From Pseudomonas resinovorans NBRC 106553 (GTDB lineage Bacteria > Pseudomonadota > Gammaproteobacteria > Pseudomonadales > Pseudomonadaceae): a stretch of DNA of 64,000 nt. Below are positions 22,583 to 43,924 of the stretch, one piece after another (positions within the stretch are counted from its first letter, which is position 1; each line of letters begins with the position of its first letter). Under the pieces are notes generated by a model. That model was not told the origin of the DNA. It was given only the letters and a program-made list of their open reading frames with translations, and searched no databases. The translations under genes and the position numbers were made by a program. Where the stretch lies: the NCBI RefSeq assembly GCF_000412695.1, contig NC_021499.1, positions 1,550,001-1,614,000 of the forward strand, read 5' to 3'.

Positions 22583-23059
22583 TCAGTCTTCCGGCAGGTT
22601 GGCGTAGATCTTTTCCAGGGTGCCGTTGAGCTTGGCGATCTGTGCCTCGCTGAGGCCCTGGAAGCTGTTGGTGAAGATGTGCGCGGTGTTCACCTGGATC
22701 TCTTCCACCATGTGCCGGCCCTTGTCGGTGATGGTCACCTGGGTGACGCGGCCGTCGTTGGCGCAGGGGGCGGTGTCCACCAGGCCGTCGTCCTTCATGC
22801 GGTAGACGATCTTGGTGACGGTGGAAAGCTTGGCGATGGCGTGCTCGGAGATCTCCGAGATGCTCGACTGGCCGTTCTCCTTGAGGATGAACAGGATTCG
22901 CCAGCGCGGGATGTCCAGGTCGATCTTCTTCAGGGTCTTTTCCATGGCCATGTTGTAGCGGCCATAGACGCGGGCGATCCAGTAGAAGGGGAATTCCTCC
23001 TTCTTGAAGTCGTCGCTGGCGGGGTTGTAGCGGTTGAGGCGCTTTTTCGGGGTGCTCAT
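22583..23059 (-). CDS. iacR: MarR family regulator, probable IacR
   Basis: A 158-residue winged-helix regulator. The HTH lies about 45-110 (LDIPRWRILFILKENGQSS, SEISEHAIAKLSTVTKIVYR) and the wing is DDGLVDTAPCANDGRVTQVT. Known IAA gene clusters include a MarR-type repressor, IacR, that is relieved by indole-3-acetate or an early product. This is the only MarR gene in the window and lies at the end of the minus-strand set that is divergent from the iac operon, so IacR is the best call. It is 7 kb from iacH, farther than in some known clusters, which lowers certainty. A C-rich loop cysteine in the wing is present. Confidence 0.65.
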   Translation of the reverse strand: MSTPKKRLNRYNPASDDFKKEEFPFYWIARVYGRYNMAMEKTLKKIDLDIPRWRILFILKENGQSSISEISEHAIAKLSTVTKIVYRMKDDGLVDTAPCANDGRVTQVTITDKGRHMVEEIQVNTAHIFTNSFQGLSEAQIAKLNGTLEKIYANLPED

Positions 23060-23191
23060 GCGAGTGGGGCAAGGTTCATGCTGACAGGGGGAGAGTTATA
23101 GGGGGTTGCGCGGACGCTGTCGACAGCCATCTGGGCCCGTCTTGATCCGGGTCAGCATTCACCGGCCACCCCATGGGGCAACCGGTGTCGC

Positions 23192-24733
23192 TCAGCCGTG
23201 CAGGAAGCGCTGGGCCAGGTCCAGCTGGGAGTGCGCCAGCTGGTGCAACTCCTGGCCGATCTGGGTACTGCGCTGGGCCTGGCCGGCGCTCTGTTCGGCG
23301 AGGCCGGCGATGCGTTCGATCTGCCGGCTGATCTCCTCGGCCACCTGGCCCTGTTCTTCGATGGCGGTGGCCATCTGCAGGCTCATGCCGCTGACCTGGC
23401 CCACTTCGCCGCTGATGCGCCGCAGGGCCTCGCGTACCTGCTCGACATCCGCGCTCGATTGCCGCGCGGCCTGCTCGCCGCGCTGGGCGGTGGCCAGGGC
23501 CTGGGCGCTGCCGTTGCGCAGGCGTTCGATGGACTGCTGGATCTGCCCGGTGGAATCGCGGGTACGCGAGGCCAGGGTGCGCACCTCGTCGGCCACCACC
23601 GCGAAGCCCCGGCCGGACTCGCCGGCGCGCGCCGCTTCGATGGCCGCGTTCAGCGCCAGCAGGTTGGTCTGCTCGGCGATGCTCTGGATCACCTCGGCGA
23701 TGCCGCTGATGGACTCGATGGACTCGGCGAGCTGGCCGACCGCCGCGCCTATGTCCTCCACCGAGCCGCGCAGGGTCTGCATCGAGGCCTGGCTCTGGCC
23801 GGCGAGGCGATCGCCGTCCCGCGCCAACTGGTCCACCGCCTGGGTGGCCTGGGCGCTGTCCTGCAGGTTGCGCGACAACTCCTGGATGGTGCAGCTCATC
23901 TGCTGCACGGCCGCCGCCGACTGCTCGGTTTCCTCCAGCTGGCGTTCCAGCTGGCCGGCCTCGCTGGCCACCAGCGCGGAGGATTCCCCGGCGCGGTGAC
24001 GCAGGATGTCGCCGTTGATATGGATGCGCGCCATCACCGTGCGCAGGCGCAATTGCAGGTTGCCCATGGCCATGTCCAGCAGGGCGTCGGCACCACCCCG
24101 CCGGCTGTAGGCCGGCGCCAGCAAGGGGTCGCTGTACACCTGTGGATAACTCGCCAGGCCGGCGCTCACGCCGCGTCGCCGTGCGTGGACGGCCTGCAGG
24201 CCGATGGCGCCCAGGCCGCCGAGCAGGGCCAGGCCAAGGCTGGCATCCAGTTGCCCGGCCAGGGTGGCGCCGGCCAGCAGCAGGGCGGCGAGGGCGGCGA
24301 GGCTGTACTCGCCGGACAGGCGCAGTGCGCGCGCCGCCAGTGACTCGGCGGGCTTGCCCTGGCGCAGGCGTGCGTAGAGGGCCTCGGCGCGCAGGCAGGC
24401 CTCGCGCCCCATGGGGTGGTAGACGGTGCCCAGGGCCACCAGTTGGCCGTTGTCGAACAGCGGCACCACGTAGAGGTCGCTCCAGAACACGCCGCCTTCG
24501 ACGTGGCGGCCCATCAGCGGGCCGTTCCAGGGCACGCCGGCACGCAGGGTCTGCCACATGCGCTCGATCACCCGCGCCGGCATGCCGGGGTGGTTGATCT
24601 GCTGGAATGGTTGGTTCAACAGCGCCTCGCGCGGGTAGCCGCACAGCTCCAGGTAGGCGTCGTTGCAATGCAGTACCCGGCCTTCCGGGTCGAGGCGGGA
24701 AATCGGTGGCTCAGCGAAGGCCTGTGCGTTCAT
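23192..24733 (-). CDS. PAS-domain methyl-accepting chemotaxis protein (Aer-like)
   Basis: A 513-residue chemoreceptor with no periplasmic domain. Residues about 10-115 are a PAS domain ([40 protein letters not shown]). Residues about 140-185 hold two membrane segments ([30 protein letters not shown]). The remainder is a HAMP-like and MCP signalling coiled coil, with the hairpin tip [20 protein letters not shown]. Start 24733 is chosen over 24745 because GGAGGA lies upstream. It is 46 bp after the ABC ATPase gene in the IAA-linked set, so it may direct taxis toward IAA or sense the redox effect of its metabolism. Confidence 0.85.
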
Positions 24734-24779
24734 GGGGTCCTCCATGGATGGGGCCCGGCCTCGCGGCCGGGCCGAGGGC

Positions 24780-25571
24780 TCAGCCGGCGAGCATCTCCTG
24801 GTGCTTGCTGGCCAGGCCCAGGTAGGCCTCGATCACGCGCGGGTCGTCGGCCAGCTGGGCGGCGGGGCCCTGCATGGCGATCTGGCCGGTCTCCAGCACG
24901 TAGGCGTAGTCGGCCACGCGCAGGGCGGCGCGGGCGTTCTGCTCCACCAGCAGGATGGACACCCCCTGCTGGCGCAGGGTGCTGATGATGCGGAAGATCT
25001 CCCGGGTGATCAGCGGCGCCAGGCCCAGGCTCGGTTCGTCGAGCATCAGCAGCTTGGGCTTGGCCATCAGCGCGCGGCCCACGGCGAGCATCTGCCGCTC
25101 GCCGCCGGAGAGGGTGGCGGCCAACTGGTCGCGGCGTTCCCACAGGCGCGGGAACAGCTCATAGACCTCCTTGAGGGTGGCGGCGTGGTCGCGCTTGCCG
25201 CTGCGATGGCGCTGGAAGGCGCCCAGCAGCAGGTTGTCGGCGACCGTCATGCTGCCGAACAGCTCGCGCTTCTCCGGCACCAGGCCCAGGCCGCGGGACA
25301 CCATCACCTCCACTTCGGGCACCGCTTCCAGGCTGCCGTCGAAGGCCACCCGGCCACGGGAGCCGAGCACCCCCATGATGGCCGAGAGCAGGGTGGTCTT
25401 GCCGGCGCCGTTGGGCCCGATCACGGTGACGATCTGCCCCTGGCCTACCCGCAGGTTGGCGCTGGAGAGGGCTTCCACCTTTCCGTAGGCGACGGATAGG
25501 TCGCTGACCTCCAGCACCGGGTTGGCGACGAGGTTTTCGGGTTGCTTCAGGTCTTGAATCGGCATGTTCAT
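24780..25571 (-). CDS. ABC transporter ATP-binding protein, LivF type (system 1)
   Basis: A 263-residue ATPase of the hydrophobic amino-acid/aromatic-acid uptake (HAAT) family. Walker A is GPNGAGKTT, the signature is LSGGERQM and Walker B is [11 protein letters not shown]; the C-terminal [10 protein letters not shown] is typical of LivF. The ATG overlaps the stop of the fused permease/ATPase gene by one base. With that gene, LivH and the binding protein it makes up a complete importer, divergent from the iac operon. The cargo is inferred to be indole-3-acetate or a related aromatic acid. Confidence 0.9.
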
Positions 25572-27370
25572 CACTCGGCTCCTCCGAGATAGGCTTCCAG
25601 CACCGCCGGGTCCTTCTGCACCTCGGCCGGCAGCCCGTGGGCGATGCGCTGGCCGAATTCCATCACCACCACGCGGTCCACCAGGCCCATGACGAAGTCC
25701 ATGTCGTGCTCCACCAGGAGGATCGCCATGCCTTCGCTGCGCAGGCGGCTGAGGAGGAGCCCCAAGGCTTCCTTCTCCTTGTGGCGCAGGCCGGCGGCGG
25801 GCTCGTCGAGCAGCAGCAGGCAGGGGTTGGCGCACAGGGCGCGGGCGATCTCGAGGATGCGCTGCTGACCCAGGGCCAGGCTGCCGGCTTCGGCATCGAG
25901 GTAGTCACCCAGGCCCACGCGTTCCAGCTGGTAGCGCGCTTCGGCGAGCAGCTCGGCTTCCTCGGCGCGGTCCAGGCGCAGGGCGGCGGACAGCACGCCC
26001 TTGTTGCCGCGCAGGTGGGCGCCGATGGCGACGTTCTCCAGCACGCTCATCTCCGCCAGCAGCTTCACATGCTGGAAGGTGCGGCTCATGCCCATGCGGG
26101 CGATCTCGCGGGAGGGCATGCCGTTGATCCGCTGGCCACGGAACAGCACGTCGCCCGAGGTGGGGGTGTCCACGCCCGAGAGCTGGTTGAACAGGGTGCT
26201 CTTGCCGGCGCCATTGGGGCCGATCAGCGCGAGGATCTCGCCGGCGCGCACTTCCAGGTTCATGTCGTTGTTGGCCACCAGGCCGCCGAAACGACGGGTG
26301 ACATTACGCGCTTCCAGCAGCACCTCGCCGGCGGTCGGCAGTTCGCGGCGCGGCAGTTCGGTGGCGCTCGCCAGCGCCTTGGCGGCCTTGCGCGGCTTCC
26401 AGGCGTCCGGCACCAGGCGCAGCAGCAGGGGCCAGAGGCCGCCCGGTGCGCGTTGCATGAGCAGGATGATGATCAGGCCGAAGACGATCACCTCGTAGTT
26501 GCCGGTGGTGCCGAAGAGTTGCGGCAGGAGGTCCTGCAGCCACTGCTTGAGCATGGTCAGCATGCCGGCGCCCAGCAGTGCGCCCCAGACGCTGGCCACG
26601 CCGCCGATCAGCGCCATGAACAGGTAGTCGATGCCCATGTGCAGGCCGAAGGGCGTGGGGTTCACGAAGCGCTGGGTGTGGGCGTAGAGCCAACCGGAAA
26701 CGGCGGCGAACAGGGCGGAGATGAGGAAGATCACCAGCTTGGAGCGGAAAGTGTTCACCCCCATGGATTCGGCCATCAGCTGGCCGCCCTTGAGTGCGCG
26801 GATGGCCCGGCCTTCGCGGGAGTCCAGGAGGTTCTGGGTGATCAGCATGGCGCACAGCAGCACGGCCCAGATCAGGTAGTAGATCTCCTCGCCCTTGTTC
26901 ATCTCCCAGCCGAGCAGCGAGATGGAGGGCAGGCCGCTGACGCCGGTATGGCCGCCGAGGGATTCCAGGGTACCGAACAGGTAGTACAGCGACAGGCCCC
27001 AGGCGATGGTCCCCAGTGGCAGGTAGTGGCCGGAGAGCTTGAGGGTCATGGCCCCCAGCAGCAGGGCCACCGCGCCGGTGAGCACCAGCCCCACCAGCAG
27101 GGTCAGCCAGGGCGAGGCGCTGGCCCAGGCCAGCCAGCCCGGCAGGTCCTGCACCGTGGTGAGGTAGGCGCTGGTGTAGGCGCCCAGGCCAACGAACGCC
27201 GCCTGGCCGAAGCTGGTCATGCCGCCGACCCCGGTGAGCAGCACCAGGCCGAGGACCACCAGGGTGTAGAGCCCGATGTAGTTCAGGAGGGTGACGTAGT
27301 AGGGCGGCAGCACCATGGGCGCGATGCCGAGCACGGCCACCAGGGAGAGGATCAGGTAGCGCGGTTTCAT
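25571..27370 (-). CDS. Fused ABC permease and ATP-binding protein (LivM-LivG, system 1)
   Basis: A 599-residue fusion. Residues 1-320 are a LivM-type permease with about 8-10 membrane segments ([39 protein letters not shown]). After a linker, residues about 350-599 are a LivG-type ATPase with Walker [32 protein letters not shown] and [11 protein letters not shown]. Such natural fusions occur in HAAT systems. The ATG overlaps the livH-type stop (ATGA). It supplies the second ATPase of the importer next to the iac operon. Confidence 0.92.
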
Positions 27371-28404
27371 TCATCGTCCTCCACGTGACGGCTGGTGAGG
27401 GAGCGCCAGAGCAGGAAGGGGATGATCAGGGTGAAGACGATGATCTCCTTGTAGGTACTGGCCCAGAACATCGAGAAGGCCTCGATCAGGCCAACGCCCA
27501 GGGCGCCCAGGGCGGCCACCGGGTAGCTCACCAGGCCGCCGATGATGGCGCCGACGAAGCCCTTGAGGCTGATGACGAAGCCCGAGTCGAAGTACAGGGT
27601 GGTGATGGGGGCGATGAGGATGCCCGACAGCGCACCGATGAAGGTGGCCAGGGCGAAGGTGGCCTTGCCCGCCAGGGTCGGCGAGATGCCCATCAGCCGC
27701 GCGCCCAGGCGGTTCACCGCGGTGGCGCGCAGGGCCTTGCCGTAGAGGCTGCGTTCGAAGAACAGGAACAGGCCGACGATCAGCGCCAGGGACACGGCTA
27801 TCACCCACAGGGTCTGGGCGTTGAAGGTCACCGGGCCCAAGGTCAGGCCGGCCTCGGAGAAGGGCGCGGTGCGGGCACCTTCCGGTCCGAACATCAAGAG
27901 GCCGATGCCCACCATGGCCACGTGCACGGCGATGGAGACGATCAGCAGCACCAGCGAACTGGCCGAGGCCAGGGGCTGGAACACCAGGCGGTAGAGCTGC
28001 GGGCCCAGCGGCACCACCAGGGCCAGGGTGAGCAGCGCTTGCACGGCCATGGGCAATTCGGCCAGGGGCAGGCTGCGCAGCAGGCCGAGCAGGAGCAGGG
28101 CGTAGGCGAGCTTGGGGACTATCCGTTTCTGGAAACGGAAGCCACGGCTGGAGCGGGTGGCGTCGTACAGGTCCATGGCGCAGTCGGCCAGGGTCAGGCC
28201 GAGCAGCAACCAGACCAGCGCGGTGGGCTGGCCGGCCTGCAGGCTGGCCATTGTCAGCGCGCCGTAGGTGACGAACTCGCCCTGGGGGATCAGCAGGATC
28301 CGCGTGACGGTGAAGACCAGCAGGAGCGAAAGCGCCAGCAGCGCGTAGATCGCGCCGTTGGTGATGCCGTCCTGGCCGAGCAGCAGGGCTATCTGGAGAT
28401 TCAT
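27367..28404 (-). CDS. ABC transporter permease, LivH type (system 1)
   Basis: A 345-residue inner-membrane permease. The family start GITNGAIYALLALSLLLVF and the coupling-helix region FVGAIIGGLVSYPVAALGAL are visible, with RATAVNRLGARLMGISP. It is a little longer than the usual ~290-300 residues owing to an extra central region with a hydrophilic loop (DLYDATRSSRGFRFQKR). Genes on both sides belong to the same importer; the next gene overlaps by 4 bp. Cargo is inferred from the adjacent iac genes. Confidence 0.9.
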   Translation of the reverse strand: MNLQIALLLGQDGITNGAIYALLALSLLLVFTVTRILLIPQGEFVTYGALTMASLQAGQPTALVWLLLGLTLADCAMDLYDATRSSRGFRFQKRIVPKLAYALLLLGLLRSLPLAELPMAVQALLTLALVVPLGPQLYRLVFQPLASASSLVLLIVSIAVHVAMVGIGLLMFGPEGARTAPFSEAGLTLGPVTFNAQTLWVIAVSLALIVGLFLFFERSLYGKALRATAVNRLGARLMGISPTLAGKATFALATFIGALSGILIAPITTLYFDSGFVISLKGFVGAIIGGLVSYPVAALGALGVGLIEAFSMFWASTYKEIIVFTLIIPFLLWRSLTSRHVEDDE

Positions 28405-28443
28405 GGTGGGAACTCTTTATTGCAGTAGGGAGGTGCCGCACGC

Positions 28444-28528
28444 GTAGGGTGGATGACGCTTTACCCATCCACCTTTGGTGCCTGACCGGGGCGCCGCAAG
28501 GTGGACGAAGAGAGCGTCGTCCACCCTA
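28444..28528. repeat. R1-like repeat between the binding-protein and permease genes
   Basis: GTAGGGTGGATGACGC at the left and GCGTCGTCCACCCTAC at the right form a long inverted repeat inside the importer operon, between its first and second genes. It may act as an mRNA-stabilising hairpin, giving more binding protein than permease. Confidence 0.65.
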
Positions 28529-28544: not shown

Positions 28545-29696
28545 TCAATTGCTGCCCAGCAGGGTCCAGGTGCCGTTCTTCACCTGGATCAGCTCGCGGC
28601 CGCGCTCGTCGAAGCCGCTGTGGTCGTCCGGGGTCATGTTGTAGACGCCCTGGGTGGCGGGCACTTCATGGCTCGCTTCCAGCGCGTCGCGCAGGGCTGC
28701 GCGGAACTCCGGAGTCCCCGGCGCGGCCTTGGCGGCGGCCAGCGGGATGGCTTTCTGCAGCAGCAGGCCGGCGTCGAAGGTGTTGGCACCGAAGGTGGCC
28801 GGCTTGCTGCCGTTGAGCTTCTCGTAGGCGGCCACGTACTCGCCGGCGAGTTGCTTGGAGGGATGGCTGTCGGGCATCTGGTCGAGCACCAGCATCAGGC
28901 TGGCGGCGAGGATGGTGCCTTCCACCTTCTTGCCGCCGAGCTTGAGGAAGTCCGGCAGGGCGGCGCCGTGGGTCTGGTACATCTGGCCGCGATAGCCCTG
29001 GTCGAACAGGGTGGTCTGCGGCAGCACCGCGGCGCTGCCGGGTGCCGCCACCAGCACGGCGTCGGGGCGTACGGAGAGCACTTTCAGGCTCTGCCCGGTC
29101 ACCGAGGTGTCCTGGCGCTGGAAGCGCTCGTTGGCCACCAGCTTGATGCCGTGCTCGGCGGCCATGGCGCCGATCACCTTGGACCAGTTCTCGCCATAGG
29201 GATCGGCGGTGCCGATGAAGCCCAGGGTCTTCACGCCGCGCGCGGTCATGTCACCCACCAGGGCCTTGGCGATCAGGTCGTCGTTCTGGGTGGTCTTGAA
29301 CACCCACTTCTTCTGCTCGTTCATCGGCAGCACCACGGCGGCGGTGCCCACCGGCGCCAGCAGCGGCACGCCGGCCTCGGCGACGAACTGGATCACGCCC
29401 ATGGCGTTGGGCGAACCGCTCGGGCCGATGATGGCGTCGACGTTCTCCTCGCTGATCAGCTTCTTCAGCGCTTTCACGGTGGCGGTGGGGTCGCTGCCGT
29501 CATCCAGGGGAATGTAGGTCACCTTCTGGTCGCCGGCCTGGGTGGGCAGCAGGGGGGTGGAGTTTTTCTGGGGCAGCCCGACCAGGGCCAGGGGGCCGGT
29601 GGACGAGGTGATGACGCCGACCTTCACGTCCGCCTGGGCGGAGGACAGGCAGATGGCGCTGAGCAGCAGGGTGGACACGGCTTGTTTGAAGTGCAT
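28545..29696 (-). CDS. ABC transporter substrate-binding protein (system 1)
   Basis: A 383-residue periplasmic binding protein with a 22-residue signal peptide (LLLSAICLSSAQAD). The type I fold is typical of HAAT receptors: VKVGVITSSTGPLALVG, DAIIGPSGSPNAMGVIQF and GTADPYGENWSKVIG. The frame is open upstream, but ATG 29696 begins the signal peptide. It is divergent from iacH across ~730 bp containing the AT-rich promoter region. Together with LivH, the LivMG fusion and LivF it probably imports indole-3-acetate or another aromatic carboxylate; this is inferred from position. Confidence 0.88.
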   Translation of the reverse strand: MHFKQAVSTLLLSAICLSSAQADVKVGVITSSTGPLALVGLPQKNSTPLLPTQAGDQKVTYIPLDDGSDPTATVKALKKLISEENVDAIIGPSGSPNAMGVIQFVAEAGVPLLAPVGTAAVVLPMNEQKKWVFKTTQNDDLIAKALVGDMTARGVKTLGFIGTADPYGENWSKVIGAMAAEHGIKLVANERFQRQDTSVTGQSLKVLSVRPDAVLVAAPGSAAVLPQTTLFDQGYRGQMYQTHGAALPDFLKLGGKKVEGTILAASLMLVLDQMPDSHPSKQLAGEYVAAYEKLNGSKPATFGANTFDAGLLLQKAIPLAAAKAAPGTPEFRAALRDALEASHEVPATQGVYNMTPDDHSGFDERGRELIQVKNGTWTLLGSN

Positions 29697-30029
29697 GACG
29701 TACTCCGGGGTTGCAAGGCTACTGGAGAGGCAATGATCCGCAGGGCGCGCCGGGCTCCAGGGGAGACCTGCGCGCGGATGGCTTGCCGCCTTTTTGTTGT
29801 TCTGGCGCCTTGAGGCGCTACCGGCGGGTATCCCGCTCGGCGGGGAGCGAAATTGCAGCTCCCGTGCCAGAAAAACCTGCTCCATGCCGGTGCGGTGCCG
29901 CAGGGGCCCCGTTCGTCTGAACCTTTCCAGCCTCCCCGCGGCAGCTGCCGACGCCCCCGGCGAGCCCTTGCGCAAATACCTTTCATCCCAGCGCTGATCG
30001 GCCTCCCAGGGTTTTGCCGGAGCTGATAT

Positions 30030-30425
30030 TCAGTCAGAAAAGTCATGATTTTTGCGATAAAAAAGCCCTGTTTTTGCGTCTAAAAAATCGCAATAAATTG
30101 CAAATATTGCGTTCGATAAACGCACAGCTGGAAAGCTGTGAATTTGCCGGTGTTTCCGCTCGGTCAAATGAAAACAATTCTTATCGGAATTGTAGCTTAC
30201 TGAAAAATAACAACTTTATAGCTTGTTTTGGAAGCCGTTGTGATTTTGTGGCTGTTACCGTTCTGCACGTTACTGGTGCTGAATTACGTGAAAGTGCACC
30301 GAATCTACACACTATTTTTCCAGTGATAATTCAATTGACATTTCACGTAATTCTTCCGATTCTGGATTTACGCATTCGACACCCCGGCAAGGGCTGTCGA
30401 GCACCAACAAGAACGCCAATGGGTA
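30030..30425 (+). promoter_or_regulatory. AT-rich iac promoter region with a 13-bp inverted repeat and a hairpin
   Basis: This stretch is markedly AT-rich against its neighbours. GAATTACGTGAAA at 30281-30293 recurs as its exact complement TTTCACGTAATTC at 30341-30353, a 13-bp inverted repeat with 47-bp spacing. A hairpin CACAGCT-GGAA-AGCTGTG lies at 30123-30140. AACAAGAA at 30406-30413 is a Crc/Hfq-type motif close to the iacH start. The region separates the importer operon from the iac operon and likely holds both promoters. A large open frame through it has no coding character. Confidence 0.6.
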
Positions 30426-31544
30426 ATGCAGATGACGATAGTGGTCGAGAAGCTCGAGCTGGGTGGCTCAGGCAGGACGGTGATGGTGAAGGACACCATC
30501 GATATCGCCGGCCATCCCACCCGGGCTTCCAGCCGTGCGCTGATCGATGCGCCCGACGCCTCGCGCCATGCCGACGTGGTCCAGGCCCTGCTGGACGCCG
30601 GCTGCCGTATCACCGGCAAGACCAGCCTGCATGAGCTGGCCTTCGGCACCACCGGCCTCAATGCCTGGACCGGCACCGCGGAAAACCCGCGCTACCCCGG
30701 CCGCGTACCTGGTGGTTCCTCCAGTGGCTCGGCCGCCGCCGTGGCCGCCGACCTCTGCGACTTTGCCCTGGGCACCGACACCGGTGGCTCGGTTCGGGTC
30801 CCCGCCTGCTGCTGCGGCGTGTTCGGCATGAAGCCCACTTTCGGCCGCGTCAGCCGTGCCGGCGTGATGCCCGCCGAAACTTCCCTGGATTGCGTAGGCC
30901 CCTTCGCCGCCAGCGTCGACCTGCTGATCGAAGCCATGGCCGCCATCGACCCGTCCTTCGATACGCTGCCCACCGTCAGCGGCGTGCGCATCGGCGTCGT
31001 GCCGGTGCAGGCCAACCCGGAAGTGCTCGCCACCCTGGAAGCCGTACTGGAAGCCTCCGACTTCGAGCTGCAGGACGCGCCGCTGCCCGGCATGCAGGCC
31101 GCCTACGATGCCGGCCTCTCCGTGATCAACAGGGAAACCTGGAATGCCTGCGGCCACCTGGTGGCTACCGGCCTGCTGGGTGCGGATATCGCTTCCCGCC
31201 TGCAGGCCGCCGGCAACACCACCGACGCCGCCCTGCGCGATGCCGAAACCATCCGCGCCGCCTTCACCGCCGAAGTGGATGCCGCCCTGGCGCGCTGCCC
31301 GATCCTCGCCCTGCCGACCATGCCGGATTACCCGGCCCTGGTGGCGGACGCCGCCGATACCCGCGCGGCCATCGGCATGACCGCCTTCGTGCGGCCGTTC
31401 AACCTCACTGGTCACCCTGCGCTGAGCATTCCTTTCGAGGGTGCCTCGAAGCTGCCGGTGGGCCTGCAACTCGTTGCCGCCAAGGGCGCGGACGAACTGC
31501 TGCTGGCAGTCGCCCGTGAGCTCGTGCGACGCCTCGAACAATAA
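30426..31544 (+). CDS. iacH: Amidase-signature family protein IacH
   Basis: A 372-residue amidase-signature hydrolase. The catalytic lysine K22 (VMVKDTIDI), the cis-serine in PGGSSSGSAAAVAA near 99-100 and the nucleophile S122 in GTDTGGSVRVPA are present. The protein is shorter at the N-terminus than GatA-type enzymes, beginning just before the lysine strand. Known iac clusters carry this gene; IacH is thought to act as an amidohydrolase but its exact step is unsettled. It leads the nine-gene operon iacHABICDEFG. Two in-frame ATGs (30426, 30432) are possible starts, and an A-rich Crc-type motif precedes them. Confidence 0.85.
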   Translation: MQMTIVVEKLELGGSGRTVMVKDTIDIAGHPTRASSRALIDAPDASRHADVVQALLDAGCRITGKTSLHELAFGTTGLNAWTGTAENPRYPGRVPGGSSSGSAAAVAADLCDFALGTDTGGSVRVPACCCGVFGMKPTFGRVSRAGVMPAETSLDCVGPFAASVDLLIEAMAAIDPSFDTLPTVSGVRIGVVPVQANPEVLATLEAVLEASDFELQDAPLPGMQAAYDAGLSVINRETWNACGHLVATGLLGADIASRLQAAGNTTDAALRDAETIRAAFTAEVDAALARCPILALPTMPDYPALVADAADTRAAIGMTAFVRPFNLTGHPALSIPFEGASKLPVGLQLVAAKGADELLLAVARELVRRLEQ

Positions 31545-32742: not shown

Positions 32743-32770
32743 ATTTTCGACTGACTGATCGGTGACTGTT

Positions 32771-33657: not shown

Positions 33658-33700
33658 CCTATTTCTGTGAGTCGGCGTATTGCGTCGACGAGGAGTGACC

Positions 33701-35545: not shown

Positions 35546-36286
35546 ATGAGCCAAGTTGCACTGGTTACCGGCGCAGCCCAGGGGCTGGGCCTGGCCATCG
35601 CCAGCCGGTTGTTCGCCGCCGGCTACGCCGTGGCCATCACCGACCTTTCGCTGGAACGTGCCCAGGCCGCCGCCGACCGGCTCGACCCGAGTGGCCAGCG
35701 CAGCCTGGCGCTGAAACTGGACGTGGACAGCAAGGCCGACTTCGAGGCCGCGCTGGCCGCCGTGGTGGAACGCTTCGGCGCCCTGCACGTGGCGGTGAAC
35801 AACGCCGCCATGACCATGACCACGCCGGTCATGCAGATCAGCCCGGAAGAGTTCGACCGCGTCCTCAGTCTCAACACCCGCAGCGTCTTCGTCGGCTGCC
35901 AGGTGTTCGGCGCGCACATGGCGGCGGCCGGCTACGGGCGCATCGTCAACATGGCGTCGCTCGCCGGGCAGAACGGCGGCACCGCCACCGGCGCGCACTA
36001 TGCCGCGTCCAAGGGCGCCATCGTCACCCTGACCAAGATATTCGCCAAGGAGCTGGCATCTGGCGGCGTCACCGTCAACGCCATCGCCCCGGGGCCCATC
36101 GAATCCCCGGCGGTACGCGCGGCGGTTCCGCCGGAGCGCATGGAAGGCCTGCTCGCCAACATCCCGGTCAAGCGCCTGGGTGACGCCGATTTCCTCGGCG
36201 ACCTGGTGGTGCAGCTGGCGCGCCCGGAAGCCTACTTCACCACCGGGGCGACCTGGGATGTGAACGGTGGGCTGTTCATGCGCTGA
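35546..36286 (+). CDS. iacE: Short-chain dehydrogenase/reductase IacE
   Basis: A 246-residue classical SDR. The dinucleotide motif is VTGAAQGLGLAIAS at about 7-20, the catalytic residues are S138, Y152 and K156 (VNMASLAGQ, HYAASKGA), and NNAA is at about 85-88. In characterised clusters IacE takes part in the conversion of hydroxylated IAA to dioxindole-3-acetate. It follows iacD closely. A 223-bp gap then separates it from iacF, unusual within this otherwise tight operon. Confidence 0.9.
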   Translation: MSQVALVTGAAQGLGLAIASRLFAAGYAVAITDLSLERAQAAADRLDPSGQRSLALKLDVDSKADFEAALAAVVERFGALHVAVNNAAMTMTTPVMQISPEEFDRVLSLNTRSVFVGCQVFGAHMAAAGYGRIVNMASLAGQNGGTATGAHYAASKGAIVTLTKIFAKELASGGVTVNAIAPGPIESPAVRAAVPPERMEGLLANIPVKRLGDADFLGDLVVQLARPEAYFTTGATWDVNGGLFMR

Positions 36287-36509: not shown

Positions 36510-37469
36510 ATGAGTGAGCAAGTATTGAATCTGGTGGTCCGCAAGCGGGTGGAGCAGGGCGAGGGCGTGGTGATCCTCGACCTCGCCGACCCTTCGGGCA
36601 AGAACCTGCCGGCCTTCGAAGCCGGTGCCCATGTGGACATCCACCTGAAAACCGGCCTGGTGCGCCAGTACTCCCTCTGTGGTGACCCGGCCAACGCCGC
36701 CGTCTACCGCCTCGGCGTGCTGCGCGACCCGGAATCCCGTGGCGGCTCGGTGGCTGTCCACGAACTGCTCCAGGAAGGCAGCGAGGTGGCCATCGGCGCA
36801 CCGCGCAACCTCTTCCCCCTGGCCGCGGACGCGAGCCGCTCGATCCTCATCGGCGGCGGCATCGGCATCACCCCGATGATCGCCATGGCCCACCAGCTGA
36901 CGGCCCAGGACAGCGCCTTCGAGCTGCACTACTGCGGCCGTTCCCGCAGCCGCACGGCCTTCCTCGACGAACTGGCGAACGCCCCGTTCGCCAGCTGCGT
37001 GCGCACCCACTTCGACGACGAAGACGCCGCGCAGAAGCTCGACCTGCCCGCCGTACTGGGGCAGCCGGAAGACGGCGTGCACGTCTACGTCTGCGGCCCG
37101 GCCGGCTTCATGGACTGGGTGATCAGCGAAGCGCGCAAGGCCGGCTATGCCGAGGAGCGCATCCACCGCGAGTACTTCCAGGTGGAAGTGGACGCCAGCG
37201 GCGAGAGCTTCGAAGTGGTGGCCGAGCGCAGCGGCAAGACCGTGCAGGTGGCCGAGGGCCAGAGCATCGTCGACGCCCTGGCCGGGGTGGGCATCAAGAT
37301 CGAGATTTCCTGCGAGCAGGGCGTCTGCGGTACCTGCCTGTGCGACGTGCTGGAAGGCGAGCCGGATCACCGCGACGTCTACCTGACCGATGAAGAGAAG
37401 GCCGCCAACGACCAGATCCTGGTCTGCTGCTCGCGGGCCAAGTCGAAAAAACTGGTGCTGGACATCTGA
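36510..37469 (+). CDS. iacF: Ferredoxin-NAD(P)H reductase IacF (PDR/VanB type)
   Basis: A 319-residue three-module reductase: an FMN-binding barrel (RQYSLCGDP), an NAD(P)H domain (LIGGGIGITPMIAMAHQL, VYVCGPAGFMDWV) and a C-terminal plant-type 2Fe-2S domain with C-x4-C-x2-C in CEQGVCGTC and a fourth cysteine in ILVCCSRAKS. It would pass electrons from NAD(P)H to the IacCD dioxygenase. The order FMN-NAD-2Fe2S is that of phthalate dioxygenase reductase. It precedes iacG by 18 bp. Confidence 0.92.
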   Translation: MSEQVLNLVVRKRVEQGEGVVILDLADPSGKNLPAFEAGAHVDIHLKTGLVRQYSLCGDPANAAVYRLGVLRDPESRGGSVAVHELLQEGSEVAIGAPRNLFPLAADASRSILIGGGIGITPMIAMAHQLTAQDSAFELHYCGRSRSRTAFLDELANAPFASCVRTHFDDEDAAQKLDLPAVLGQPEDGVHVYVCGPAGFMDWVISEARKAGYAEERIHREYFQVEVDASGESFEVVAERSGKTVQVAEGQSIVDALAGVGIKIEISCEQGVCGTCLCDVLEGEPDHRDVYLTDEEKAANDQILVCCSRAKSKKLVLDI

Positions 37470-37487: not shown

Positions 37488-37988
37488 ATGGTCGATACCA
37501 CTGGATTCCGTAATGCCATGGCGCTGCTGGGCGGCGCCGTTTCGGTCATCACCACCGATGGCGCCGCCGGGCGCTTCGGTTTCACCGCCTCGGCGGTGTG
37601 CAGCGTCACCGACCAGCCGCCGACGCTGCTGGTGTGCATGAACCGCTCCTCCTTCGCCAACGGCCACTTCAAGCAGAACGGCGTGCTCAGCGTGAACGTG
37701 CTGACCGCCGAGCTGAAGGACATCTCCGCCGTTTTCGCCAACCGCGAGCTGAGTTCCGACGAGCGCTTCGCCCGCGCCAGCTGGAGCACCCTGGAGAGCG
37801 GTTCGCCGTTGCTTGAAGGCGCCCTGGTGAACTTCGACTGCCGCATCGCCCAGGCCCATGAAGTGGGTTCCCACACCATCTTCTACTGCGAAGTGCTGGG
37901 CATCCTCCACGGCAAGAGCCAGGAAGGCCTGGTGTACTTCAACCGCGCCTACCACCGCCTCGGCGACGCCTCCCGCTCGGCCTGCTGA
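37488..37988 (+). CDS. iacG: Flavin reductase IacG
   Basis: A 166-residue flavin-reductase-domain protein: LLGGAVSVITTDGAAGRFGF, FTASAVCSVTDQPPTLLVCM and LSVNVLTAELKDISAVFA. It makes the reduced flavin used by IacA. It is the last gene of the iac operon; after it lies an inverted repeat and then a separate porin gene. The group matches HpaC/HsaB-like partners of acyl-CoA dehydrogenase-fold monooxygenases. Confidence 0.9.
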   Translation: MVDTTGFRNAMALLGGAVSVITTDGAAGRFGFTASAVCSVTDQPPTLLVCMNRSSFANGHFKQNGVLSVNVLTAELKDISAVFANRELSSDERFARASWSTLESGSPLLEGALVNFDCRIAQAHEVGSHTIFYCEVLGILHGKSQEGLVYFNRAYHRLGDASRSAC

Positions 37989-38090: not shown

Positions 38091-38345
38091 GAGCGGTGTT
38101 GATCAAGAATTCCGGAACCAATCCGGAACATTGGCTGAAGTTGCTTATCGGCCAATTCAAAAGCTGTACCCATAACTAGAAATCGAGGGTGCCCGTAACT
38201 TCCGGGTAACGGGCCTTGCTACGCCTTTTTGCAGTAAGTGGTCATAAAAATAACAGTGTGGATTAACTGCCGAAGTTGGACTTCTTGCTAATTAATCTGC
38301 TTCCACTCGATGTGCCGTGCTTGCACATGTATTAAGGATAATTCC

Positions 38346-39623
38346 ATGTTTCAGAAAAGCTGGCTGGCCAGCGGCGTCGCTGCCGCAGGCCTGATGGGGA
38401 TGCTCGTGCCGTTCTCCGCCCAGGCGGACTTCGTGAAGGATCGGCAAATCAGCCTTGGCCTGCGAAACTTCTATATCGACCGTGACTTCAAACAGAACGA
38501 TGCGCCAAAGTCGCGTATCGGTAGTTGGACCCAGGGTTTCGATTTTCGCGCTATTTCCGGATATACCGAGGGTACTGTCCAGTTCGGTCTGGATGTATCC
38601 GGACAATATGCCTATCGCCTCGATGGCGGTGGCGGCCGTGGCCCGGACACCATCATTCCCTACGACGACAGCAGGGGTGAGCAGGTCCGCGATTACGGTC
38701 GTGCCGCGCTGACCGGCAAGATGCGCTACTCCAAGACCGAGCTGAAGGTGGGCGAGCACCGCCCGATGCTACCGGTGGCCTTCTATGACGATTCCCGGCA
38801 ACTGGTCACCACCTTCCACGGCTTCATGCTGGAGTCCCGCGAGGTGGACAAGCTGACCCTCACCGGCGGCCGCTTCACCGAGATCAGCAGTCGCGAATCG
38901 TCCAACCGCGAGAAGATGTACCTGTTCAACGGACCGGACATCAAACGCCGCAGCGATGGCCTGAACTTCGGCGGCGCCACCTACGCGTTCAGCCCGGCCT
39001 TCACCGCCAGCTACTTCTATGGCCAGCTGGAAGACATCTACCAGCAGCACTACCTGGGGGCGACCCACATCGCCGACCTCGGCAACGGCTTCGGCCTGAA
39101 GACCGACCTGCGCTACTTCGACAACAGCGAAGACGGCAAGGCGCTCTATGGCGAGATCGACAACCGCTCCTACGGCGCCATGACCACCCTGCGCAAGGGC
39201 CCCCACGCCATCGGCGTCGGCTACCAGCGCATGCTCGGCGAAAGCGCCTTCCCGACGCTCAACGGCTATGCGCCGCAGCCCTACCTGGTGAACTGGTCCA
39301 CCGTCGGCTTCGTCAAGCCCAACGAGAGCTCCTGGCAACTGCGCTACGACCTGGACTTCGCCGCCTACGGCGTGCCCGGCCTCAAGCTGATGACCCGCTA
39401 CCTGCGCGGCACCGGCATCGACCGTGGCAACAACGCCCTGGACGACAACGTCGAGAGCGAGCGCAACCTCTACCTCAGCTACGTGGTGCAGAGCGGCGCG
39501 TTCAAGGGTGTCGGCTTCGAGTGGCGCAACATCGACGTCAAAACCCGCTACGGCAACGGCGGCGCCTCGGGGCCGGACTACCAGGAGAACCGCCTGATCA
39601 CCACCTACACCTTCAAGTTCTGA
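38346..39623 (+). CDS. OprD-family outer-membrane porin (after iac operon)
   Basis: A 425-residue porin with a signal peptide of about 27 residues (AAGLMGMLVPFSAQAD). The mature part opens FVKDRQISLGLRNFYIDRDF, typical of OprD/OccK porins, includes [20 protein letters not shown], and ends in the beta-barrel terminus TYTFKF with a final phenylalanine. OprD members let small carboxylates through the outer membrane. Its place between the iac operon and cat genes suggests it admits IAA or another aromatic acid. Substrate choice is not visible in the sequence. Confidence 0.9.
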   Translation: MFQKSWLASGVAAAGLMGMLVPFSAQADFVKDRQISLGLRNFYIDRDFKQNDAPKSRIGSWTQGFDFRAISGYTEGTVQFGLDVSGQYAYRLDGGGGRGPDTIIPYDDSRGEQVRDYGRAALTGKMRYSKTELKVGEHRPMLPVAFYDDSRQLVTTFHGFMLESREVDKLTLTGGRFTEISSRESSNREKMYLFNGPDIKRRSDGLNFGGATYAFSPAFTASYFYGQLEDIYQQHYLGATHIADLGNGFGLKTDLRYFDNSEDGKALYGEIDNRSYGAMTTLRKGPHAIGVGYQRMLGESAFPTLNGYAPQPYLVNWSTVGFVKPNESSWQLRYDLDFAAYGVPGLKLMTRYLRGTGIDRGNNALDDNVESERNLYLSYVVQSGAFKGVGFEWRNIDVKTRYGNGGASGPDYQENRLITTYTFKF

Positions 39624-39685: not shown

Positions 39686-40309
39686 ATGCGACTCTACGAA
39701 CTCATCACCTTCACCCTGCGGGTACGCACCCCGGCCGCCGCCCTGGCGCGCCTTGAGGGCACCCTGGCCGAAGCGGCGCCGGGCTGCACCCTGGTTGGCT
39801 GCTGGGCGTCGGAGATCGGCCCGCTGAACCAGATCGCGGTGCTGCGCGGCTTCAGCGACGAGCAGGCGCGACAGACCGAGCGCGAGCGCTTCCTGCTGGC
39901 GCGGGACGCCTTCGGCATCGAAGAATTCATGCTCGACATGAAGGTGGAGAACTACACGCTCTTCCCCTTCTTGGAACCCCTGGCGCCGGGCGCACACGGG
40001 CCTTTCTACGAACTGCGCGAGTACAACCTGATCCCTTCGGGCCTGACCCCCACCCTGGAAGGCTGGAAGAAGGCCGTGGGCCCGCGCACCGGGGAAGGTT
40101 ATTCACAGGTCTACGCCGCCTTCTACGCCACCGACGGGCGTACCCCGCGCTACCTGCACATCTGGCCCTACCGGAGCCTGGAACAACGCCTGGACGTGCG
40201 CACGCGAGCCGTCGAGGACGGCGTCTGGCCCCCGGAAAACTCCGGCCCGCAGCTGCGTGAAATGCATTCCACCGCCTACCTGCCGGCGAAGTTCTCGCCG
40301 CTGCGCTAG
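39686..40309 (+). CDS. NIPSNAP family protein
   Basis: A 207-residue protein with two NIPSNAP-like ferredoxin-fold repeats: MRLYELITFTLRVRTPAAAL to EIGPLNQIAVLRGFSDEQAR, then GPFYELREYNLIPSGLTPTL to RYLHIWPYRSLEQRLDVRTR. Bacterial members often accompany catabolic or monooxygenase genes and are of uncertain function. It follows the porin by 62 bp and ends in a strong terminator, so both may be cotranscribed. There is no signal peptide. The first gene downstream is on the opposite strand. Confidence 0.8.
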   Translation: MRLYELITFTLRVRTPAAALARLEGTLAEAAPGCTLVGCWASEIGPLNQIAVLRGFSDEQARQTERERFLLARDAFGIEEFMLDMKVENYTLFPFLEPLAPGAHGPFYELREYNLIPSGLTPTLEGWKKAVGPRTGEGYSQVYAAFYATDGRTPRYLHIWPYRSLEQRLDVRTRAVEDGVWPPENSGPQLREMHSTAYLPAKFSPLR

Positions 40310-40496: not shown

Positions 40497-40508
40497 AAGA
40501 GCAGATTG

Positions 40509-41390
40509 CTACAGCCGCCCCCGCGACAACTCCTCGATCAGCGCCAGGCAATGGGTCAGCGCCGGGGAAGCGTCACCGGTGCGGCGGCTGATGATGATGG
40601 GCGAGGTGGCCTGGGCCTCCTGCAGCTTGGCGTAGCCGATGTCGGCGCGGTGCAGCACCTGCACCGAGGCCGGCACCAGGGTGATGCCGATGCCGGCGGC
40701 CACCAGGCCGATGGCGGTCTGCAGTTCGTTGGTCCACTGCGCCACCTCGATCTGCAGGCCATAGGCGGCGAACAGCGCCAGCACGTGGTCGGCATAGCTC
40801 GGCCGGGGGTTGCCCGGGTAGAGCACGAAGCTCTCCTGGGCAAGGTCGGTGAGGCTCACCGGGCCCGGCAGCAGGGGATGCCCGGCGGGCAGGGCGGCCA
40901 CCAGCGGGTCGAGGGTCAGCACCTGCTGCTGGATCGCCGGGTCGTTGATGTGGATGCGGCCGAAGCCGACGTCGATGCGTCCGGCCTTGAGGGACTCCAC
41001 CTGTTGCAGGGTGGTCATTTCCGACAGGCCCAGCTCCAGGCCGGCGTCGCTGCGCAGGCGGCGTATCAGATCGGGCAGTACGCCGTAGAGGGTGGAGGGG
41101 GCGAAGCCGATGCCGAGCCAGGCTTTTTCCCCCGAACCAATACGCCGGGTATTGTCACAAACCTTGGTCAGCTGCTCGAGGAGGGTGCTGGAATGTTCGT
41201 GGAAAAAGCGTCCGGCTTCGGTAAGCCGCAGCGGTCGGCCACGTTCCAGCAGGGCCACCCCGAGTTCGTCCTCGAGCTGCTGGATCTGCCGGCTCAACGG
41301 GGGCTGCGCGATGTGCAGGCGTTCCGCGGCGCGGGTGAAATTGAGGGTCTCGGCGAGCGCCTGGAAGTAGCGCAGGTGGCGAAGCTCCAT
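40509..41390 (-). CDS. catR: CatR, LysR-type activator of catBCA
   Basis: A 293-residue LysR-type regulator. The N-terminal winged HTH is MELRHLRYFQALAETLNFTR with AAERLHIAQPPLSRQIQQLE; the effector domain follows (LGIGFAPSTLYGVLPDLIRR, PLVAALPAGHPLLPG). ATG 41390 with CGGAG upstream is preferred to the longer frame. It is divergent from catB over 124 bp containing an ATAC-N7-GTAT site. In Pseudomonas CatR binds cis,cis-muconate and activates catBC(A). Its place next to catB makes the assignment firm. Confidence 0.9.
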   Translation of the reverse strand: MELRHLRYFQALAETLNFTRAAERLHIAQPPLSRQIQQLEDELGVALLERGRPLRLTEAGRFFHEHSSTLLEQLTKVCDNTRRIGSGEKAWLGIGFAPSTLYGVLPDLIRRLRSDAGLELGLSEMTTLQQVESLKAGRIDVGFGRIHINDPAIQQQVLTLDPLVAALPAGHPLLPGPVSLTDLAQESFVLYPGNPRPSYADHVLALFAAYGLQIEVAQWTNELQTAIGLVAAGIGITLVPASVQVLHRADIGYAKLQEAQATSPIIISRRTGDASPALTHCLALIEELSRGRL

Positions 41391-41425
41391 GGTGACTCCG
41401 GGGTGGTGGTGTTCGGGGTTCATCG

Positions 41426-41440: not shown

Positions 41441-41514
41441 CGTGCTAGACAAACTCTATATTGGACCCCACGGTTTGTCGCGGCCACTATCCGATACCAG
41501 AACAAGCAAACCTG

Positions 41515-42648
41515 ATGGGTATTGAAGTGAGCCAAGTCCTGATCGAAAGCGTCGAGACGATCATCGTCGACCTGCCGACCATCCGCCCGCACAAGCTGGC
41601 CATGCACACCATGCAGCACCAGACGCTGGTGGTGATCCGCCTGCGCTGCTCCGATGGCATCGAAGGTCTCGGCGAGTCCACCACCATCGGTGGCCTGGCC
41701 TACGGCAACGAGAGCCCGGAAAGCATCAAGCAGAACATCGACAGCCACCTGGCTCCGCTGCTGATCGGCCAGGACGCCGCCAATATCAACGCCGCCATGC
41801 TGCGCCTGGACAAGGCCGCCAAGGGCAACACCTTCGCCAAGTCCGGCCTGGAAAGCGCCCTGCTCGACGCCCAGGGCAAGCGCCTTGGCCTGCCGGTCAG
41901 CGAGCTGCTCGGCGGCCGCGTCCGTGACGGCCTGGAAGTGGCCTGGACCCTGGCCAGCGGCGACACCGCCAAGGACATCGCCGAAGCCCAGCACATGCTG
42001 GAAATCCGCCGCCACCGCATCTTCAAGCTGAAGATCGGCGCCGGTGAAGTGGACCGCGACCTCAAGCACGTGATCGCCATCAAGCAGGCCCTGGGCGACA
42101 CCGCCAGCGTGCGCGTGGACGTCAACCAGGCCTGGGACGAATCCGTTGCCCTGCGCGCCTGCCGCATCCTCGGCGACAACGGCATCGACCTGATCGAGCA
42201 GCCCATCTCGCGCATCAACCGTTCCGGCCAGGTACGCCTGAACCAGCGCAGCCCGGCGCCGATCATGGCCGACGAATCCATCGAAAGCGTCGAAGATGCC
42301 TTCAGCCTGGCCGCCGACGGCGCCGCCAGCATCTTCGCCCTGAAAATCGCCAAGAACGGCGGCCCGCGTGCCGTGCTGCGCACCGCGCAGATCGCCGAGG
42401 CGGCCGGTATCGCCCTTTACGGCGGTACCATGCTGGAAGGTTCCATCGGCACCCTGGCCTCGGCCCACGCCTTCGTGACCCTCAAGCAACTGACCTGGCA
42501 CACCGAGCTGTTCGGCCCGCTGCTGCTGACCGAGGAAATCGTCACCGAAGCGCCGGTCTACCGCGACTTCCAGCTGCACGTGCCGCGTACCCCGGGCCTT
42601 GGCCTGGCCCTGGACGAAGAGCGCCTGGCGTTCTTCCGCCGCAAGTAA
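41515..42648 (+). CDS. catB: Muconate cycloisomerase
   Basis: A 377-residue enolase-superfamily enzyme that converts cis,cis-muconate to muconolactone. Catalytic parts are the KxK lysines in RIFKLKIGAG, the metal ligands in VRVDVNQAW, LIEQP and MADES, and a C-terminal GGTMLEGSIG. ATG 41515 gives the usual length; a GTG 12 bp on is another possible start. It leads the catBCA operon under CatR. Confidence 0.95.
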   Translation: MGIEVSQVLIESVETIIVDLPTIRPHKLAMHTMQHQTLVVIRLRCSDGIEGLGESTTIGGLAYGNESPESIKQNIDSHLAPLLIGQDAANINAAMLRLDKAAKGNTFAKSGLESALLDAQGKRLGLPVSELLGGRVRDGLEVAWTLASGDTAKDIAEAQHMLEIRRHRIFKLKIGAGEVDRDLKHVIAIKQALGDTASVRVDVNQAWDESVALRACRILGDNGIDLIEQPISRINRSGQVRLNQRSPAPIMADESIESVEDAFSLAADGAASIFALKIAKNGGPRAVLRTAQIAEAAGIALYGGTMLEGSIGTLASAHAFVTLKQLTWHTELFGPLLLTEEIVTEAPVYRDFQLHVPRTPGLGLALDEERLAFFRRK

Positions 42649-42664
42649 ACAGGAGATCGATCCC

Positions 42665-42955
42665 ATGCTGTTCCACGTGAAGATGACCGTAAGACTTCCG
42701 GTCGACATGGACCCGGCCAAAGCCGCCAAGCTCAAGGCCGACGAGAAGGAACTGGCCCAGCGCCTGCAGCGCGAGGGCAAGTGGCGCCACCTGTGGCGCA
42801 TCGCCGGTCACTACGCCAACTACAGCGTGTTCGACCTCGAAAGCGTCGAGGCACTGCACGACACCCTGATGCAGCTGCCGCTGTTCCCCTACATGGAGAT
42901 CGAGGTGGACGGTCTGTGCCGCCACCCGTCGTCGATTCACGAAGACGATCGTTGA
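42665..42955 (+). CDS. catC: Muconolactone delta-isomerase
   Basis: A 96-residue ferredoxin-fold enzyme converting muconolactone to 3-oxoadipate enol-lactone. It begins MLFHVKMTVRLPVDMDPAKA and contains REGKWRHLWRIAGHYANYSV and the LPLFPYMEIEVDGLCRHPSS end, all typical of CatC decamers. It follows catB by 16 bp with AGGAGA as ribosome binding site. Confidence 0.96.
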   Translation: MLFHVKMTVRLPVDMDPAKAAKLKADEKELAQRLQREGKWRHLWRIAGHYANYSVFDLESVEALHDTLMQLPLFPYMEIEVDGLCRHPSSIHEDDR

Positions 42956-42971
42956 TCGTTTCGCAACCGAT

Positions 42972-42979
42972 AAAAACAA
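42972..42979 (+). promoter_or_regulatory. Crc/Hfq-type motif before catA
   Basis: AAAAACAA fits AANAANAA and lies about 15 bp before the catA ATG, beside its AGGAAA ribosome-binding stretch. Confidence 0.45.
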
Positions 42980-42994
42980 GATGAGGAAATAGCC

Positions 42995-43924
42995 ATGACT
43001 ATCAAACTGTCCAGCACCGAAAGCGTTCAAAAGTTCTTCCAGGAAGCCAGCGGCTTCAACAACGACCAGGGCAGCCAGCGCATGAAGAAGCTGGTCAACC
43101 GCATCCTGCTCGACACCGTGAAGATCATCGAAGACCTGGAAGTCACCACCGAAGAATTCTGGAAGGCGGTCGATTACCTCAACCGCATGGGTGCCCGTGG
43201 CGAAGCCGGCCTGCTGGTAGCGGGCCTGGGCCTGGAGCACTACCTCGACCTGCTGCTGGATGCCCAGGACGAGGCGGTCGGCCTGTCCGGCGGCACCCCA
43301 CGCACCATCGAAGGCCCGCTGTACGTGGCCGGCGCCCCGCTGTCCGAAGGCGAGACCCGCATGGACGACGGCACTGACGCCGGCACCGTGATGTTCCTTG
43401 AAGGCCAGGTGGTCGATGCAGACGGCAAGCCGATCGCCGGCGCTACCGTCGACCTGTGGCACGCCAACACCAAGGGCACCTACTCCTACTTCGACACCAC
43501 CCAGTCGGACTACAACCTGCGCCGCCGCATCCTCACCGATGCCAACGGCCGCTACCGCGCCCGCAGCATCGTGCCGTCCGGCTACGGCTGCCCGCCGGAT
43601 GGCACCACCCAGGAAGTGCTGAATCTGCTCGGTCGCCACGGCAACCGTCCGGCCCACATCCACTTCTTCATCTCCGCGCCGGGCTACCGTCACCTGACCA
43701 CCCAGATCAACCTGTCGGGCGACGAGTACCTGTGGGACGACTTCGCCTACGCCACCCGCGATGGCCTGGTCGGTGAAGTGCGCTTCACCGAAGACGCCGC
43801 CGCCGCCAAGGCCCGTGGTGTGGACGGCAGCCGCTTCGCCGAGATCGAGTTCGGTTTCCAGCTGCAGAAGGCCCCGACCGCCGAGCAGGAAGCCATTCGC
43901 GACCGCGTACGCGCAGAAGCCTGA
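42995..43924 (+). CDS. catA: Catechol 1,2-dioxygenase
   Basis: A 309-residue intradiol dioxygenase that cleaves catechol to cis,cis-muconate. Iron ligands are visible: a tyrosine in TKGTYSYFD (about 163), Y197 in IVPSGYGCPPDG, and H221 and H223 in PAHIHFF. The N-terminal helical dimer domain is intact. It is third in the operon, 39 bp after catC, and is followed by a strong terminator. It would receive catechol from both the IAA and the anthranilate branches. Confidence 0.97.
   Translation: MTIKLSSTESVQKFFQEASGFNNDQGSQRMKKLVNRILLDTVKIIEDLEVTTEEFWKAVDYLNRMGARGEAGLLVAGLGLEHYLDLLLDAQDEAVGLSGGTPRTIEGPLYVAGAPLSEGETRMDDGTDAGTVMFLEGQVVDADGKPIAGATVDLWHANTKGTYSYFDTTQSDYNLRRRILTDANGRYRARSIVPSGYGCPPDGTTQEVLNLLGRHGNRPAHIHFFISAPGYRHLTTQINLSGDEYLWDDFAYATRDGLVGEVRFTEDAAAAKARGVDGSRFAEIEFGFQLQKAPTAEQEAIRDRVRAEA

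Follow-up and report, generated by a model that had tools for sequence, protein, structure and literature searches.

A predicted indole-3-acetic acid degradation locus of Pseudomonas resinovorans linked to a Liv-type importer and to an Aer-derived chemoreceptor with an altered PAS pocket

A 64,000-nucleotide stretch of Pseudomonas resinovorans NBRC 106553 (contig NC_021499.1, positions 1,550,001 to 1,614,000; hereafter the window) carries a complete iac gene set for degradation of indole-3-acetic acid (IAA), divergent from genes for a Liv-type ABC importer with its solute-binding protein (SBP), a PAS-domain chemoreceptor and a MarR-type regulator. The strain belongs to a group named Metapseudomonas in GTDB. 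Gene content, conserved linkage, orthology, and a receptor clade with characteristic residue changes were established here, and we propose that the whole is probably a self-contained locus for IAA acquisition and degradation.

Genes and domains were called by direct reading of the window with Pfam and NCBIfam profile scores (Table 1). The domain reading confirmed the gene list and layout of an earlier note on this DNA, in which iacHABICDEFG diverges from the importer, receptor and MarR genes and is followed by an OprD porin gene and catBCA. The minus-strand row of SBP, livH, livMG, livF, receptor and iacR genes is operon-like, with spacing of 5–140 bp and one 4-bp overlap. The plus-strand row comprises iacHABICDEFG and the genes for the porin and a NIPSNAP-domain protein, then catBCA; a LysR-type gene, taken as catR from its position, diverges from catB. 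Both rows share a 729-bp intergenic region (29697–30425), the iacH half of which is AT-rich (GC 38% at 30030–30380). As NCBIfam offers no model dedicated to iac genes, they were named by gene order and orthology; each of the nine has an orthologue at 82–97% identity in Pseudomonas sp. LY1, an IAA degrader. The iacA–I set together with the MarR-type iacR, the gene content that defines an iac-type IAA degradation locus, is present. Judged from orthology to LY1 and the literature on P. putida 1290, the locus would convert IAA to catechol. From iacG it is 3.5 kb to the start of catB and 5.0 kb to that of catA, in line with the 3–5 kb given earlier.

The neighbourhood of the SBP was surveyed in one genome per species (84,980 species), with linkage scored within 10 kb. 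The search yielded 218 encoded relatives, and the counts below refer to the best 80 (72–97% identity), among which the nearest named relatives were Pseudomonas sp. BN102 (97%) and P. resinovorans (96%). The SBP gene lay beside iac genes in 59 of the 80 loci (58 with at least three iac genes and one truncated contig with two), and beside an iad-type set of Rieske alpha and beta subunits, CoA ligase and thiolase in another 18 (17 with all four, one truncated with two). The remaining three were L069, a 6.5-kb contig, and L006 and L013, which were dismissed as full counter-examples, their genomes carrying iacA elsewhere; the L069 genome gave no iacA match and was not searched for iad. Both livH and livMG adjoined the SBP gene in 70/80 loci, and the association with IAA pathways was found in Pseudomonas, Zoogloea, Azospirillum, Achromobacter and others. 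The Rieske alpha subunit of one iad locus (L065) matched the solved Variovorax proteins 7YLS/8H2T (653 bits over 434 residues), taken as IadD from PMC10374108; iad loci of Achromobacter are known from the available text of PMC9613470. As far as the accessible sources describe them, the iac and iad routes have IAA as their common substrate, with different enzymes and with catechol and anthranilate, respectively, as end products. Since one SBP adjoins two different pathways that share this substrate, the sequence evidence points to IAA as the cargo of the importer. The earlier note had left the importer and the receptor with no assigned cargo; none was found in the papers examined either, but for the importer it can be proposed from this linkage. 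The condition under which the note would have counted its proposal as refuted, that relatives lacking iac keep the importer in other surroundings, mostly did not apply to close relatives (18 of the 21 loci outside iac are iad loci and two of the other three genomes have iacA), but some relatives at 47–50% identity do stand in other surroundings.

Presence and absence were followed in a genus sample of 18 genomes and a family sample of 198, with 9 or 13 first-look candidates scored per genome in the family scans. In the genus, iacA was detected in 16/18 genomes and the SBP in 15, always within 3 kb of iacA. In the family sample, the SBP occurred in 21 genomes, all of them with iacA, which lay within 3 kb in 20 and on another contig in G038; the neighbourhood is thus not a matter of chance. 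The iacA gene itself was present in 47/198 genomes and reached at least 72% identity in 22 of these. Of the 26 iacA genomes without the SBP, 24 carry iacA at only 52–63%, which ties the importer to one branch of iac rather than to all.

The receptor consists of an N-terminal PAS domain, a hydrophobic hairpin (judged by eye) and an MCP signalling domain, as in Aer, and its PAS domain matched 3EWK best among solved PAS domains and E. coli Aer (8DIK) second. Ten receptor matches at 60–100% identity were found in the genus, all at the importer (that of G008 on a broken contig), with the next matches at 38% or below. Among eight named genomes (that of L003 apparently the same as G006), seven had the receptor; the best match (44–74%) was always at the importer, and the next reached at most 36%, if a fragment of 90 residues at 37% is set aside. 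In the family sample, the receptor was present in 14 of the 21 SBP genomes and in none of the 177 others. Its persistence in relatives lacking iac, which the earlier note had named as telling against its proposal, was thus not seen in this sample. In 13/14 cases it lay within about 12 kb of the SBP gene, the G008 copy being at a contig edge.

For the phylogeny, 63 of 84 receptor-like frames were kept after frames below 470 aa and duplicates had been dropped; the G008 receptor (L106) was counted as linked despite its broken contig. The maximum-likelihood tree, midpoint-rooted without an outgroup, split 28 importer-linked receptors from 35 Aer-like paralogues with 100/100 support. The two groups also differ at the FAD contacts of E. 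coli Aer as given in the accessible part of PMC9668731. R57 is replaced by N in 26 and by D or L in two of the linked receptors, N85 by G, A or I in all 28 and R115 by Y in all 28, whereas all 35 paralogues keep R, N and R. The window receptor has N, G and Y at these positions and the LY1 receptor N, I and Y. From these alignments we infer a partial loss of the FAD site, and because the three contacts are gone the receptor is probably not a redox sensor; sensing of a ligand inside the cell, which may be imported IAA, is more likely than redox sensing. We tentatively suggest, as a possibility that falls somewhat short of probable, that Aer-derived receptors of this apparently new clade exchanged FAD-based redox sensing for sensing of intracellular auxin or an auxin catabolite and were co-inherited with the auxin importer, such that the cell would navigate by auxin already imported.

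Published proteomic data are available for LY1, whose genome LSSW01 is of the same strain and has the layout of the window. According to the accessible text of PMC8383072, growth on IAA raised IadHABICDEFG (equal to Iac) at least 4-fold, the cluster porin PCLY2669 216.75-fold and the chemoreceptor PCLY2651 16.1-fold. The importer-linked receptor, at 67.9 kb on contig 29, is most likely PCLY2651, because it lies about 17 kb from the porin gene and no other MCP was seen in the 150 kb around that gene. The locus tags differ by 18 and 16 genes were counted between them, which would require the annotation to contain two additional short genes. This induction of the porin and, most likely, the receptor, along with the iac/iad linkage of the importer, supports the dedicated IAA foraging proposed earlier. 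Among solved structures, the nearest relative of the MarR protein is P. putida IacR, which is known to bind IAA. Upstream of iacH, a block of the form TGCAC..GGTGC..GCACC..TCAATTGACAnTTCACGTAA is conserved at 75% or more per base across 33 Pseudomonas-type intergenic regions, chosen by hand from 59 available and compared also with the genus set; it is a candidate promoter/operator. A perfect 13-nt inverted repeat (30281–30293/30341–30353) is present in the window, its upstream arm not being conserved. Against the promoter assignment, no site passed in a simple sigma-70 scan. A literature search on the IacR operator, judged by title, gave no relevant paper.

In the mechanism that we propose, IAA would enter through OprD in the outer membrane, be captured by the SBP and be carried into the cell by LivHMGF. 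Cytosolic IAA would then free IacR from the intergenic region and switch on both divergent operons; IacA–I would convert IAA to catechol, to be cleaved by CatABC. The receptor, encoded in the importer operon, would sense intracellular IAA or an early product through a PAS pocket unsuited to FAD, and taxis would thereby report what the importer delivers. The cargo, the operator and the receptor ligand in this scheme are inferred.

Several observations weigh against an IAA-specific or indispensable importer. Apart from the 26 iacA genomes without SBP (among them G149; 24 of the 25 genomes with divergent iacA at 52–63% lack it), G010 (L165, L180, L194) keeps iacR, iac, cat and ant but has neither of the two importers, neither of the two oprD genes and no receptor in the region examined. 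As G010 retains iac and cat, the importer is not indispensable; this genome is a naturally reduced version of the cluster and a natural test of whether the uptake genes matter. The nanomolar IAA binder IadK2 of Variovorax (7YLT) proved dispensable in E. coli (PMC10374108), and of its six pocket positions the SBP keeps the equivalents of S104, R199 and F308, with F168 changed to T, W172 to Y and Y311 to N. That the importer and receptor are passengers retained through common regulation, while IAA diffuses in or uses other transporters, would suit G010 and the divergent-iac genomes, which manage without both, and the dispensability of IadK2; the retention of the SBP beside two pathways in so many genera makes this highly improbable. 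An unlikely, though better supported, alternative is that the importer really carries another indole or aromatic acid akin to IAA (indole-3-pyruvate, indole-lactate or an IAA conjugate), IAA being derived from it or one of several substrates. By sequence and fold, the SBP belongs to the aromatic-acid SBPs, its best solved relatives being 3SG0 and 4DQD, of which 4DQD was determined with 3-phenylpyruvate. In the predicted model, of modest confidence and built from an alignment of close relatives only, aromatic-acid SBPs including those for p-coumarate and caffeate appear tied as fold matches. Relatives at 47–50% stand in other surroundings (three annotated records among four examined of the 117 plasmid records that match the SBP/iacH stretch, the fourth lacking annotation), and SBPs at 47–48% have CoA-type aromatic acid genes and an indolepyruvate oxidoreductase gene as neighbours. 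An ApbA-type reductase and a class II aldolase, enzymes outside iac, were also noted in 36/80 SBP loci (e.g., L006:14858–16682, L008, L003), directly after livF in 33 by manual count, and in Marinomonas. However, neither the window cluster nor any of the stretches examined around the 18 iad loci contains this pair, the window's genome giving aldolase matches only (at most 48% over the 70 residues searched). The SBP pocket is invariant, and the linkage to two pathways with IAA as common substrate argues for IAA itself.

The remaining alternative concerns the receptor, which could be an ordinary Aer-type energy-taxis receptor that is merely co-regulated, with IAA taxis depending on IAA metabolism. 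The common domain build and the 8DIK match agree with it, as does the dominance of energy taxis on IAA swim plates of P. putida 1290 reported in the accessible text of PMC9543091. The proposed mechanism is further weakened by the absence of the receptor from 6/16 iac genomes of the genus and by the remaining FAD contacts: W70 is kept in 28/28 and M69 in 27/28 linked receptors and H53 in 14 (F or Y in the other 14), so flavin could still bind. In Pseudomonas Root71, flagellar and chemotaxis genes were down on IAA, according to the available part of PMC11630574. Nevertheless, the loss of R57, N85 and R115 throughout a separate, fully supported clade and the presence of two further Aer-like receptors (38% and 33%) in the window's genome make the ordinary Aer reading less likely, and we regard it as rather doubtful.

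A grouping of iac with genes of chemotaxis, transport and the cat route has been reported before, for P. putida 1290, where an MCP "possibly involved", OprD, an ABC ATPase and catR-catBCA lie near iac in a gene order different from that of the window (PMC6624763). The closest counterpart is LY1, described in the accessible text of PMC8383072 with the order iad(iac)HABICDEFG-porin-orf1-R1-catBCA, IAA-induced; that text includes neither the importer nor the receptor in its cluster. The LY1 sequence has both in the same order as the window but differs in the reductase/aldolase pair between livF and the receptor and in pca genes after cat. For Marinomonas NFXS50/MWYL1, the available part of PMC11373566 gives the order iacR-aldolase-reductase-ABC-SBP-iacABICDEFG; iacR, a Liv-type ABC system, SBP and iac are shared with the window, but iacH is at the other end, the transport genes are called function-unknown and no receptor is listed in that part. 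IadK2 is of the same SBP family and Aer has the same domain build, with the pocket differences given above. The IAA receptor PcpI of P. putida 1290, compared by description in the accessible part of PMC9543091, has a "small unknown" ligand-binding domain with no PAS listed, unlike the N-terminal PAS of the window receptor, and this domain showed no direct IAA binding; the PAS chemoreceptors named there for the strain are Aer2/Aer3 homologues and tandem-PAS types. Among the papers listed in a literature search, mostly without subscription papers, none was recognised as assigning this importer or, beyond the MCP of PMC6624763, a PAS receptor to IAA, and none as describing the receptor clade. The link of one importer to two pathways seems to be new, and so does the receptor clade.

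The designation of the cluster as an island in the earlier note was not upheld. A recent genomic island was rejected in view of the genus-wide iacA, the lack of any tRNA found in the 64,000-nt window and the absence of a GC shift (65.8% within the finding and 66.4% outside it); no search was aimed at integrases. The genus regions with iac that were examined in 15 other genomes carry catR, catB, catC and catA after iac in 15/15 cases and oprD in 14. Beyond cat, on the right, lies a second module of OprD2, Liv-type importer 2, antCBA and an AraC-type regulator, with AntA at 964.5 bits (TIGR03228, cut-off 671.9), AntB at 293 (213.5) and AntC at 635 (402). With this module beyond cat, a single cat operon serves both iac and ant; antA lies there in 12/15 genus regions and importer 2 in 11/15. 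The antCBA module, the LysR gene and the NIPSNAP gene were missing from the earlier note; the last stands between oprD and catR in 9/15 genus regions, elsewhere in two, and was not found in four. Two further loci are recorded here for comparison. Aromatoleum evansii KB740 (L071), a strain cited for anaerobic IAA degradation, has iad-type genes and the SBP in one 21-kb stretch, and NC_013856.1 (a 724-kb replicon of Azospirillum sp. B510) has divergent amidase and SBP genes, as in the window. Among candidate frames, 27371–28468 was rejected as livH, and the listed TTG start at 29975 was rejected for the SBP as too long, ATG at 29696 being the best start.

Table 1. Features of the locus in the window
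Feature	Position	Strand	Basis
iacR, MarR-type repressor, end of importer operon	22583–23059	-	PF01047; 7KUA (P. putida IacR) best solved relative, 213.5 bits
Chemoreceptor: cytosolic PAS, hydrophobic hairpin, MCP signalling domain; Aer-derived clade, remodelled PAS pocket	23192–24745	-	Pfam; Aer PAS alignment; clade and residue counts
livF-type ATPase	24780–25565	-	PF00005
livM-livG fusion, permease and ATPase	25571–27370	-	PF02653 + PF00005
livH-type permease	27367–28404	-	PF02653, 64 bits (cut-off 26.8)
SBP, putative IAA binder	28545–29696	-	PF13458; 7YLT IadK2 among PDB relatives, 272 bits
Candidate promoter/operator block before iacH	30248–30372	+	TGCAC..GGTGC..GCACC..TCAATTGACAnTTCACGTAA
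iacH, amidase	30426–31544	+	PF01425; 82% to LY1
iacA, flavin monooxygenase, acyl-CoA dehydrogenase fold	31570–32742	+	Pfam; 85% to LY1
iacB	32762–33133	+	93% to LY1; without Pfam match
iacI, SnoaL-like	33139–33657	+	PF13577; 86% to LY1
iacC, Rieske oxygenase alpha	33695–34975	+	PF00355/PF00848; 97% to LY1
iacD, Rieske oxygenase beta	35059–35535	+	PF00866; 94% to LY1
iacE, short-chain dehydrogenase	35546–36286	+	PF13561; 91% to LY1
iacF, ferredoxin reductase	36510–37469	+	PF00111/PF00175; 88% to LY1
iacG, flavin reductase	37488–37988	+	PF01613; 89% to LY1
OprD-family porin	38310–39623	+	PF03573; 88% to LY1
NIPSNAP-domain protein; by position orf1 of LY1	39686–40309	+	PF07978
LysR-type regulator; catR by position	40509–41423	-	PF00126 + PF03466
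catB, muconate cycloisomerase	41515–42648	+	TIGR02534, 523 bits (cut-off 335)
catC, muconolactone isomerase	42665–42955	+	PF02426, 128 bits (cut-off 26.7)
catA, catechol 1,2-dioxygenase	42995–43924	+	TIGR02439, 475.7 bits (cut-off 392)
Further catechol-feeding module: OprD2, second Liv-type importer, antCBA (anthranilate dioxygenase), AraC-type regulator	46247–57073		Profile matches

Root growth is shaped by auxin-degrading bacteria. If the importer is specific for IAA, one SBP clade would mark both aerobic degradation routes and could be used for finding degraders and for testing why bacteria retain high-affinity uptake. Should the receptor respond to cytosolic IAA, it would be the second bacterial solution to auxin sensing after PcpI, and one of a very different kind.

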